NCBI RefSeq assembly: GCF_003097355.1
Contig: NZ_PYUI01000007.1
Span: 1-64,000 of the forward strand
DNA length: 64,000 nt
Reading direction: 5' to 3'
From: Arthrobacter sp. H-02-3
GTDB lineage: Bacteria > Actinomycetota > Actinomycetes > Actinomycetales > Micrococcaceae
The notes beneath the pieces were generated by a model that searched no databases, was not told where the DNA came from, and saw only the letters and a program-made list of their open reading frames with translations. Shown here piece by piece: positions 23,398-25,696 of the stretch (within the stretch, counting starts at the first letter, position 1; each line of letters opens with the position of its first letter). The position numbers and the translations under genes are program-made.

Positions 23398-23949
23398 ATG
23401 AGCAAACTGATGGATGCACAGACTCCCGCCGCTCGGTCGAAATCAGTGGCGTCGAAGCGCGGAATTGACTGGGGCAAGGTGTTCGCGTTCCCGAACCCGG
23501 TGAACGAGTACTCCGCCCGCATCACCGCGGCACTGGTCGTGGTGCTGTCCGCAGCGACCCTGCTGACCGGTTTCGGCTGGGGGCTCGCCATCATCGCGGC
23601 GGGATTCTGGCTGCGCGTGCTGTTCGGTCCGCGGATCTCGCCGCTGGCGCAGCTCTCGGTCAAGGTCATCACGCCCTGGCTCGGCCGCACGCGGCTTGTT
23701 GCCGGCCCGCCCAAGCGGTTCGCGCAGGGCATCGGCGCCGCCGTGTCGACGGCCGCCGCGCTGCTGCTGGCCGCCGGCCTCGCGCCGGCCGCATGGGTCC
23801 TGCTGGCTGTGCTGATCGCCGCGGCGTCCCTCGAAGCATTCGCCGGGTTCTGCCTCGGCTGCACCATTTTCGGATTCCTGCAGCGCCGCGGGGTCATCCC
23901 CGAGGACGTCTGCGAGGCCTGCAACAACATTTCGCTCCGGCGCGCCTAA
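23398..23949 (+). CDS. DUF4395 membrane protein
   Basis: 183 residues. After a 25-residue polar start come FPNPVNEYSARITAALVVVL, FGPRISPLAQL, and the family hallmark GFCLGCTIFGFLQRRGVIP, whose CxxC pair lies at the end of the last helix. Four helices are visible. DUF4395 proteins often sit next to thioredoxin- or rhodanese-like genes and a redox role is suspected, though unproven. The ATG is 7 bases after TAGCCT (23386-23391). A second CxxC-like pair, DVCEACNN, ends the protein. Confidence 0.85.
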   Translation: MSKLMDAQTPAARSKSVASKRGIDWGKVFAFPNPVNEYSARITAALVVVLSAATLLTGFGWGLAIIAAGFWLRVLFGPRISPLAQLSVKVITPWLGRTRLVAGPPKRFAQGIGAAVSTAAALLLAAGLAPAAWVLLAVLIAAASLEAFAGFCLGCTIFGFLQRRGVIPEDVCEACNNISLRRA

Positions 23950-24040
23950 GGCCCTCCGCCAGAGATCCGGCGCGCCAATGATCCGACGAGTCTGTTTCGG
24001 ACATGTTCTCGGCAGGCTCTGACTATTGGACATAGAGGCA

Positions 24041-24260
24041 ATATGTCCAGTCCTCGCCACCGCGAATGCGCATGTCACGAGCTGCTGCGGCCAGGGATGG
24101 ACATGTCGCTCGCGGTGGGACGCGACTGGGCATGTCCTGGGCACACAGCAGTGGCGGATGGACATGCCGTTCGCGGTGATGCACGACCGGGCATGTCCGG
24201 AGGGATGCGGCAACCCGGAATGGACATGCCCGTTGCGGCGAGGCAAAACTGGGCATGTCC
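24041..24260. repeat. Array of four 37-39 bp repeats with inverted ends
   Basis: Three direct units of exactly 39 bp lie at 24099-24137, 24160-24198 and 24222-24260, separated by 22 and 23 bp of unrelated sequence. Each starts GGACATG and ends GGGCATGTCC or TGGGCATGTCC, so its ends are inverted repeats; the middle shares (T/C)CGCGGTG or close variants and CGAC(T/C)GGGCATG. A fourth, more degenerate copy (24041-24077) lies upstream in the opposite orientation. Additional GGACAT(G/A) half-sites occur at 23999 and 24028. Unit spacing (61 and 62 bp) is not a multiple of three, so it is not a repeated peptide. It fills the gap between a DUF4395 gene and a convergent gene. I do not recognise the element. 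Confidence 0.8.
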
Positions 24261-24354
24261 CGCGGAAAAGCCGGCCCAGGTGACGGCAGATGGACGGTCC
24301 CGCGCTGCACGAATACCGAAGACCTGACGCCAAGCGCACAGGTTCGCGGCGACG

Positions 24355-25524
24355 TTACGAGCCGGTGACGGCCGCCAGCCGTGACGCCATGCCCCGGATG
24401 ACCTCCGGTGCCTCCAGGGCCGCCAGCCAGCCGGCCGGCAGGCACTGCTCGCCGTAGTACGCCCCCAGGATGTTCCCCGCGATCGACGCCGTCGAGTCGC
24501 TGTCCCCGCTGTGGTTCACCGCGACGGCGATGGCCGCGCGGAAGTGGGCCTCGGCGCGCTCCTCGGCGGCACCGGCCGCCGTCGCTGTTTCTGTCCCGAT
24601 TCCCGGGGCGGTGGCCAACACGGCGTAGAGCGCGACGGCGAGGGCTTCCTCTGCCACCCAGCCCTCGCCGAGTTCGCGGACCAGGTCCTCGGGGCTGAGC
24701 CTGTCCCCGGGCCCCGGCCTGTCCCCGGCCAGCCGCAGGGCCGCCTCCAGCCGGGACACCACATCGGCGTCCGGGTCCTCGCCCTTCCGCAGGATGCCGC
24801 CGCACAGCTGCGCGAGGGCCGATTCCGCGGCTTCGCGCAGTCCGCGTCCGGTAGCCAGGGCATGGATGACCAGGCTGAACACCCCGGCGCTCTGCCGTGC
24901 CGCGGGGTGTCCGTGGGTCAGCGACGCGGCGTCAGAGCTGAGCTTGTAGACCGTCTCGGGCTCGAGGTGGGGGATCAGGCCGAACGGCGCCGAACGCATC
25001 ACGGTGCCGCAGCCCTTCGACTCGGGGTTGACCGGCCGCTGCACGGTCCCCATCTCGCCCGTGGCGAGTCCGCTCAGGCACGCGTTGCCGGGCGCCCGGC
25101 GGTTCTTCAGAACGTCCTGGCCGTCGATCCAGCGCGGCGGCTGGACCGGGGCCGACGCCGGCACGGCGACCCCCTGGGTGCCCAGCCAGCGCAGGTACGC
25201 GAGCCACAGGCACGCGTTGATGTCGGCCGACACGCCGTCGTTCGCCCATTCGAGCGCCTCGAGGAGGCCGTCCGCCGTGTACAGCGTCATTTGCGTGTCG
25301 TCCGAAAACGGGCTGGCGGCGTCGAGAGCGGAAAAGTCCTGCAGGCCCGCGGGGCCGAACCGGGCGCGGATCGCGGAAATGCTGTCGAACTCGACGGCGT
25401 AGCCCAGCGAATCGCCGAGCGCGCCGCCCAGCAGGCAGCCGTGAATGCGCGAACCGTGGGCAGGGGAGTGTGACGGGCCGGGTGCTGGGGCTGGTGCGGG
25501 CGTGGTCCCGGGCTCGGTGCTCAT
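24355..25524 (-). CDS. ADP-ribosylglycohydrolase family protein
   Basis: 389 residues from ATG 25524, which lies 8 bases after TAAATT on the minus strand. The fold's motifs are clear: GCLLGGALGDSLGYAVEF near residue 28, the Mg-binding FSDDTQMTLYTADGLLEA near 75 and the second metal cluster NHSGDSDSTASIAGNILGA near 345. Family members (DraG, ARH3-like, crystallins) remove ADP-ribose from proteins or nucleic acids using two magnesium ions. The N-terminal 20 residues are Pro/Ala low-complexity. No ADP-ribosyltransferase partner is seen nearby. Confidence 0.9.
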   Translation of the reverse strand: MSTEPGTTPAPAPAPGPSHSPAHGSRIHGCLLGGALGDSLGYAVEFDSISAIRARFGPAGLQDFSALDAASPFSDDTQMTLYTADGLLEALEWANDGVSADINACLWLAYLRWLGTQGVAVPASAPVQPPRWIDGQDVLKNRRAPGNACLSGLATGEMGTVQRPVNPESKGCGTVMRSAPFGLIPHLEPETVYKLSSDAASLTHGHPAARQSAGVFSLVIHALATGRGLREAAESALAQLCGGILRKGEDPDADVVSRLEAALRLAGDRPGPGDRLSPEDLVRELGEGWVAEEALAVALYAVLATAPGIGTETATAAGAAEERAEAHFRAAIAVAVNHSGDSDSTASIAGNILGAYYGEQCLPAGWLAALEAPEVIRGMASRLAAVTGS

Positions 25525-25696
25525 GTCTTCAAATTTACCCGCCGCCGCGCGCACTACCCAATGAACGCCGGTAGGGTGCTGTTAGGACCCGTCCAGCGGT
25601 CGGGCGAAGCAACCGCCGGTGGTGCCGTCGCCAGGCCAGGCAAGACAATCAGGCCACAAAGACAACCAGGCCAAACAGGACGACCAGAGGACACGA

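Follow-up and report, generated by a model that had tools for sequence, protein, structure and literature searches.

The usual explanation of dispersed palindromes outside genes is that they are RNA hairpins or REPs driven by a transposase. CRISPR repeats are about 21–50 bp long and come with a leader and Cas genes, while parS, matS and others form families of chromosome-organising sites. By the definition given in excerpts of two papers, REPs carry a conserved GTAG/GTGG (or CGTC) tetranucleotide beside the palindrome (PMC3686654, PMC3733652). The REP/BIME elements of the GTAG and CGTC super-families are described in an excerpt of the latter as short palindromic extragenic repeats, dispersed and often clustered, which are found mainly downstream of genes, between convergent or tandem genes (PMC3733652).

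The family of GGACAT arrays described here is similar to REP/BIME in these respects, but differs in lacking a GTAG/CGTC tag, a compensatory stem and a Y1 transposase in its own genome, and in having as its unit a 10-bp dyad, placed at 29/32-bp steps around a 21-bp core. With MITEs and other miniature elements derived from insertion sequences it shares a multi-copy, non-coding and intergenic character and inverted symmetry; unlike MITEs, the arrays generally have no flanking direct repeat, their positions are shared across species, and the number of units within an array is variable. As in CRISPR arrays, short repeats alternate with spacers of fixed length and diverse sequence, but here the repeat is no longer than 10 bp, spacers of two or three different lengths alternate, there are many separate arrays per genome, the orientation reverses at the core, and no called gene lies inside any of 17 arrays of the genome of origin. 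An analogy can also be drawn with parS/matS-type families, which are symmetric protein sites scattered over the chromosome, although the present sites are iterated in arrays, are not confined to one region in the relative G289 (among the matches listed), and have no known cognate protein. The family has a REP-like address without RNA-hairpin or RAYT hallmarks. No description of it was found in the open-licence literature; in an excerpt of PMC12306157 a row of the RepRanger table names an Arthrobacter species, and the RepRanger lists may include the GGACAT repeat.

The array lies in the window, i.e. the whole stretch of 64,000 nucleotides of Arthrobacter sp. H-02-3 DNA that was analysed. There, the 262-bp stretch 23999–24260 forms one array in a single register, composed of a 21-bp palindromic core and 10-bp dyads:

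23398..23949, + strand: upstream flanking gene, DUF4395 protein (PF14340, E 9e-37); its stop lies 49 bp before the array
23999..24008, no strand: 10-bp dyad GGACATGTTC, forming the left outer site of the central element and preceding the core by 29 bp, the distance typical of the family
24028..24048, no strand: central 21-bp palindrome GGACATAGAGGCAATATGTCC; family core GGACATAnTGsCAnTATGTCC, from 62 non-redundant cores
24068..24077, no strand: 10-bp dyad GCGCATGTCA, decayed; it forms the right outer site of the central element and starts exactly 69 bp after 23999, as is usual in the family for dyads on either side of a core
24099..24108, no strand: 10-bp dyad GGACATGTCG, left end of the first 39-bp unit
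24128..24137, no strand: 10-bp dyad GGGCATGTCC, right end of the first unit
24160..24169, no strand: 10-bp dyad GGACATGCCG, left end of the second unit
24189..24198, no strand: 10-bp dyad GGGCATGTCC, right end of the second unit
24222..24231, no strand: 10-bp dyad GGACATGCCC, left end of the third unit
24251..24260, no strand: 10-bp dyad GGGCATGTCC, right end of the third unit and of the whole array
24355..25554, - strand: downstream flanking gene, convergent, ADP-ribosylglycohydrolase (PF03747, E 2.6e-61)

The successive steps are 29, 40 (over the core), 31, 29, 32, 29, 33 and 29 bp. The register runs from the dyad at 23999 over the core at 24028–24048 to the decayed dyad at 24068, both of these dyads lying 19 bp from the core, and continues with six further dyads that start at 24099, 24128, 24160, 24189, 24222 and 24251 (steps 31, 29, 32, 29, 33 and 29 bp). 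The first-pass annotation had recognised three 39-bp units, which are real (24099–24137, 24160–24198 and 24222–24260, with gaps of 22 and 23 bp), each of them consisting of two dyads 29 bp apart. Its fourth, "inverted decayed copy" is not a copy of the unit, but the 21-bp palindrome 24028–24048 with its own dyads at 23999 and, decayed, at 24068; the distances of 29 and 69 bp around it are those of the whole array family. The conserved unit middle CGCGGTG holds for two of the three units, the third having TGCGGCG, and is no feature of the family, in which the spacers vary in sequence and keep their length. No gene was called across the array stretch by the custom-made gene caller, and the open reading frames listed there are mechanical.

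When the window was shuffled 100 times with its dinucleotide composition preserved, the 39-bp unit pattern did not occur. The 405-bp intergenic stretch contains seven dyads (at most one mismatch) and four pairs at 29/31/32 bp, compared to a maximum of three dyads and no pair at these distances in 2000 shuffles of the same stretch. Three lone dyads elsewhere in the window (30843, 37211 and 57963) are about what is expected by chance.

In the family as a whole, the basic unit is the 10-bp dyad GRRCATGYYC with half-site GGACAT, and the core corresponds to this dyad expanded at its centre by 11 bp, or roughly one turn of the helix. From 62 cores the central element could be derived as GGACATGCCC, 19 bp, the core, 19 bp and GGGCATGTCC; a dyad with at most two mismatches was present on both sides in 59 of these 62 non-redundant cores, each of which had been selected for a dyad on one side or both. 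Some of the sequences used (loci L001–L086 and L120–L186) were fetched with motif patterns, so that their base frequencies lean to the bait; this applies to the core column frequencies, to the core/arm pairing test and to the last part of the masked-dyad comparison given below. Loci L088–L116 and L189–L221 were fetched by their flanking genes without motif bait, and 39 of these (the 33 of L189–L221 and the six array-bearing ones of L088–L096) serve as the unbaited set.

Distances between dyads are quantised, with peaks at 29, 31, 32, 61, 62 and 69 bp in the set from the H-02-3 genome and nothing in the reversed control. At the 39 flank-fetched loci, 329 pair distances of up to 75 bp included 29 bp (49 times), 32 bp (57), 61 bp (39) and 69 bp (46), the reversed control giving 0. 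Spacers of equal length differ in sequence. At dyad positions 3/8 the unbaited loci have 81 A/T, 71 G/T, 63 A/C and 10 G/C forms, the doubly weak G/C dyad GGGCATGCCC being rare (10 observed, 26 expected). Near cores the intact GGACAT half points outward, with 21 A/C against 5 G/T forms on the left and 36 G/T against 5 A/C on the right, as counted over the 39 flank-fetched loci and 20 motif-fetched stretches of the H-02-3 genome (L037–L056). Tandem copies of whole blocks were seen inside the arrays L038 (114 bp), L045 (61 bp) and L046 (about 160 bp, by eye), indicating local growth. The dyad GRRCATGYYC fits the consensus for half-sites of p53, an animal protein, and GGACATGTCC occurs in p53 papers (by title); this resemblance is taken as coincidence.

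The search for many dispersed intergenic copies that the first-pass annotation had proposed gave a positive outcome. In the H-02-3 genome the pattern GGACAT-N12..36-ATGTCC was found 32 times (reversed control 1), GRACATGTYC 145 times, in part inside genes (reversed control 9), and the spaced pair CATGYCC-N19..22-GGRCATG 79 times (reversed pattern 0). Twenty stretches around such matches contained 17 arrays of at least three dyads, none with a called gene inside. Among 206 genomes of the genus, tallied by hand from a table, 50 have at least 7 spaced pairs, 30 of them at least 20, and the rest 0 to 5; in one of the 50, with 13 spaced pairs, the control pattern matched 4 times as well, and counts in the low double digits therefore call for caution. 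Of the 29 relatives compared at the DUF4395 locus, 25 have at least 13 spaced pairs and the others 0, 0, 0 and 5, while 114 genomes of other genera have 0 to 3 each. A more demanding pattern of the core plus one dyad, with 28 fixed or two-way positions, was run against a collection of 84,980 species and matched 67 stretches, each with Arthrobacter or Pseudarthrobacter in its title. The family seems to be confined to some Arthrobacter-type bacteria.

Spaced pairs were counted in place of exact 10-mers, since coding sequence can presumably make GGACATGTCC in GC-rich genomes, and exact counts are then not clean evidence outside the genus. In genus g14 of the bacterial family, GGACATGTCC occurs 12–25 times in each of eleven genomes of 2.3–2.7 Mb, where the reversed control gives 0, and the five of them that were also searched for spaced pairs have 0–2 each; codon use may explain this abundance. 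Among the matches listed, at least five genomes (G086:C11:931267, G197:C2:47051, G198:C12:212441, G203:C10:31036 and G204:C4:143723) share a match in which two CATG ends enclose a 19-nt spacer that is an almost perfect palindrome; this may be a different conserved sequence, perhaps a coding one, outside the GGACAT array family. A plasmid or phage origin of the array was rejected: 291 bases of the window had no match among 72,556 plasmid and 50,697 phage records, from which records very near the H-02-3 genome may have been left out. Two stretches found in a scan of viral contigs, each with one spaced pair and no array, are most likely due to chance.

Dyads occur predominantly outside called genes (506 of 556), even though 83% of the same DNA was called coding. 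Seventy gaps with arrays, drawn from the window, the stretches of the H-02-3 genome and the named loci, comprise 24 convergent, 38 tandem and 8 divergent gene pairs, as against 36, 144 and 82 for the other gaps of at least 80 bp in the same DNA (n = 262, P = 3e-5), and 77, 329 and 95 for all other gene pairs (n = 501, P = 4e-4); some of the 70 loci may be orthologous, which makes these tests approximate. In 33 of the 38 tandem pairs the array is closer to the upstream stop. The REP trait of being extragenic with a preference for gene 3' ends is thus found in the pooled 70 arrays, whereas the 17 arrays of the H-02-3 genome alone (3 convergent, 11 tandem, 3 divergent) show no convergent bias.

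These data bear on the nature of the sites. The first-pass annotation had offered three options, i.e. a regulator-binding array, a MITE-like remnant or a family of small-RNA hairpins, and the first is the best supported in its general form, as a DNA-level array of symmetric sites. In the stricter form of a classical transcription-factor regulon with iterated operators, it would agree with the symmetric 10-bp and 21-bp sites and the conserved half-site; against this, the pooled set is poor in divergent gaps, in which promoters lie, and the flanking proteins searched (19 of the 34 at the 17 H-02-3 arrays) are of diverse kinds, so that such a regulon is very improbable.

The distribution along a chromosome could be followed in G289, a relative with a complete genome and dnaA at 1.436 Mb. 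Its 34 array clusters, delimited by eye among the first 100 of 133 matches, lie along the listed 3.70 of 4.35 Mb in a manner compatible with a uniform spread (P = 0.29). Neighbouring clusters are partly paired, 8 of 33 gaps being shorter than 10 kb where 2.9 were expected (among the matches listed). Macrodomain-type clustering near the origin or terminus is not supported by this spread, again among the matches listed.

At the window locus the flanking gene pair is conserved in relatives. The array is present in six of 29 (G289, G374, G351, G220, G373 and G258) and absent in 23, including G326, G234 and G383 among the nine closest, which implies that it is dispensable there. In 16 of the array-free relatives the aligned protein ends are 1 to 114 bp apart, and the empty site of G383 consists of 17 bp, stop codons included, with letters that resemble the filled sites at both of their edges. 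In G373 the array at this DUF4395 locus is flanked by an exact direct repeat of 37 bp (L095, 2011 and 2864), which includes the end of the neighbouring gene and may mark a local duplication; recombination between its copies would yield an empty site similar to that of G383.

Ten other arrays of the H-02-3 genome, picked from the clear ones among the 17, were followed by means of flanking pieces in four relatives picked as array-rich. This recovered 33 of 40 locus-by-genome cases, in the other seven of which the flanks lay on separate contigs or at a great distance from each other, or could not be located. All 33 orthologous regions contain dyads (at least four in 32, two in one), from which it follows that, over these mutually non-independent loci, array positions are old and unit numbers are changing; the number of units per array indeed varies between species. 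Five orthologous regions, L088 (G289), L190, L191, L194 and L195, have 1.1–2.5 kb between the flanks, much more than in H-02-3, with masked stretches in L088 and L195, as if arrays were targets of insertion. According to the title of PMC1525189, REPs serve as such targets for insertion sequences.

The pattern of presence and absence has to be weighed against a selfish or neutral origin, in which a MITE-like extragenic repeat was once spread by an enzyme recognising GGACAT ends and now grows by tandem duplication, the apparent selection being due to shared descent and alignment effects. The dispersed copies within one lineage, with copy numbers very different between species, confirm the part of the MITE-like proposal that concerns a dispersed family; the filled sites of G374, G351, G220, G373 and G258 next to the 17-bp empty site of G383, the 37-bp repeat around the G373 array and the local duplications inside L038, L045 and L046 point in the same direction. 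However, flanking direct repeats with a score of at least 14 were found at none of 80 arrays (control also 0), a test that duplications shorter than about 10 bp would escape. Matches to Y1_Tnp at E <= 0.001 occur in 2 of 204 genomes of the genus, array-bearing G197 over the cut-off and G205 weakly, and not in the H-02-3 genome, whereas 5 of 14 control genomes were positive. Together with the positions common to several species (33 of 33 recovered regions) and with dyads that are better kept than spacers overall, even when masked from the aligner, this leaves a selfish repeat rather doubtful, though it is a serious contender. Membership of the RAYT/REP group was rejected, as there is no Y1 transposase in the H-02-3 genome, no tag (neither GTAG/GTGG nor CGTC appears in the column frequencies of 62 cores and flanks) and no compensatory stem.

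Over 30 comparisons at the ten H-02-3 arrays, identity was 0.867 in dyads and 0.634 in spacers, compared to 0.885 in 150-base flanking pieces and 0.76 in the remaining DNA; three of the 33 regions were left out because they were much longer or masked (G374 and G383 at L038, G374 at L043). Within dyads, identity is 0.93–0.97 at positions fixed in the consensus and 0.73–0.79 at degenerate ones. The spacers being less alike than the remaining flanking DNA, the arrays may be partly misaligned, and since aligners anchor on repeats, the H-02-3 dyads were also hidden from the aligner. With this masking, dyads still exceed spacers overall (0.734 versus 0.635) and where neighbours align well (0.855 versus 0.700), and 58 of 78 well-aligned dyads still fit GRRCATGYYC. 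Dyads are kept worse than spacers in eight of the 30 masked comparisons, namely all three at L048, G289 and G383 at L055, G289 at L038 and L045, and G374 at L054. Dyads are thus better conserved than spacers overall. The clearest locus is L054: across five species no change is seen at 19 of the 21 positions of the core while the spacers vary, and the dyad steps are kept in all five except for one inserted base in G374; some dyads carry single changes. The arrays therefore combine a symmetric site, a fixed spacing and conservation above that of the spacers, as would an array of protein-binding sites.

Another reading is that the arrays act in RNA: transcribed in 3' untranslated regions, they would form a series of hairpins by which messages are stabilised or terminated, a role that has been proposed for REPs. 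The window array does fold strongly as RNA (-143.3 kcal/mol, z -5.4, none of 200 shuffles as good), and arrays lie close behind stops in tandem pairs, with convergent pairs favoured in the pooled set. Strong folding would, however, be expected of any array of palindromes, and changes across the symmetry are not compensatory, arms being paired at 0.458 versus 0.502 when shuffled (z -3.0) and core halves at 0.875 versus 0.890 (z -2.4), in a test that leans to the bait; the symmetry consequently looks like that of a DNA site and not of a stem, and a hairpin across the core was rejected. Self-pairing of spacers, suggested by single examples, proved no better than with shuffled partners in non-redundant spacer pairs (42 at 29 bp, 12 at 31 bp and 34 at 32 bp). 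Moreover, there is no terminator-like site in 23900–24420 and no Rfam match above the gathering score in the window, and eight of the 70 arrays lie in divergent gaps. A role as RNA element is therefore unlikely.

The explanation that we favour, and to which we give an even chance of being correct, is that of a lineage-specific extragenic array of putative protein-binding sites acting as a boundary at gene ends. Two GGACAT half-sites would be read in two geometries, back to back in the 10-bp dyad and 11 bp (one helical turn) further apart in the 21-bp core. A putative symmetric DNA-binding protein of these Arthrobacter lineages may dock on the core and on successive dyads, the first of which lie 19 bp to either side of the core and are followed by others at steps of about 29 or 32 bp. 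Binding would presumably be cooperative, although the distance from dyad to dyad does not amount to a whole number of helical turns (29 bp corresponds to 2.76 and 61 bp to 5.81 turns of 10.5 bp) and is a poor fit to simple same-face cooperativity. The bound array would most likely form a boundary at gene ends, either as a roadblock to transcription or as a nucleoid or supercoil anchor; we propose this role because most arrays closely follow the end of a gene and few are found in divergent gaps, a gene context that the choice of gap alone, through avoidance of promoters, could also give. A more speculative and rather improbable extension is a chromosome-wide boundary system, in which the predicted protein reads GGACAT in both geometries, docks on the core, extends along the 29/32-bp dyads and so sets boundaries to transcription or supercoiling at the ends of genes.

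The array family shows signs of constraint at the DNA level on both site and spacing. If the cognate protein is found, the family would provide a clean, countable system for gene-end marking or nucleoid organisation in bacteria, in which the presence or absence of arrays at known loci, such as the window locus, supplies natural controls.
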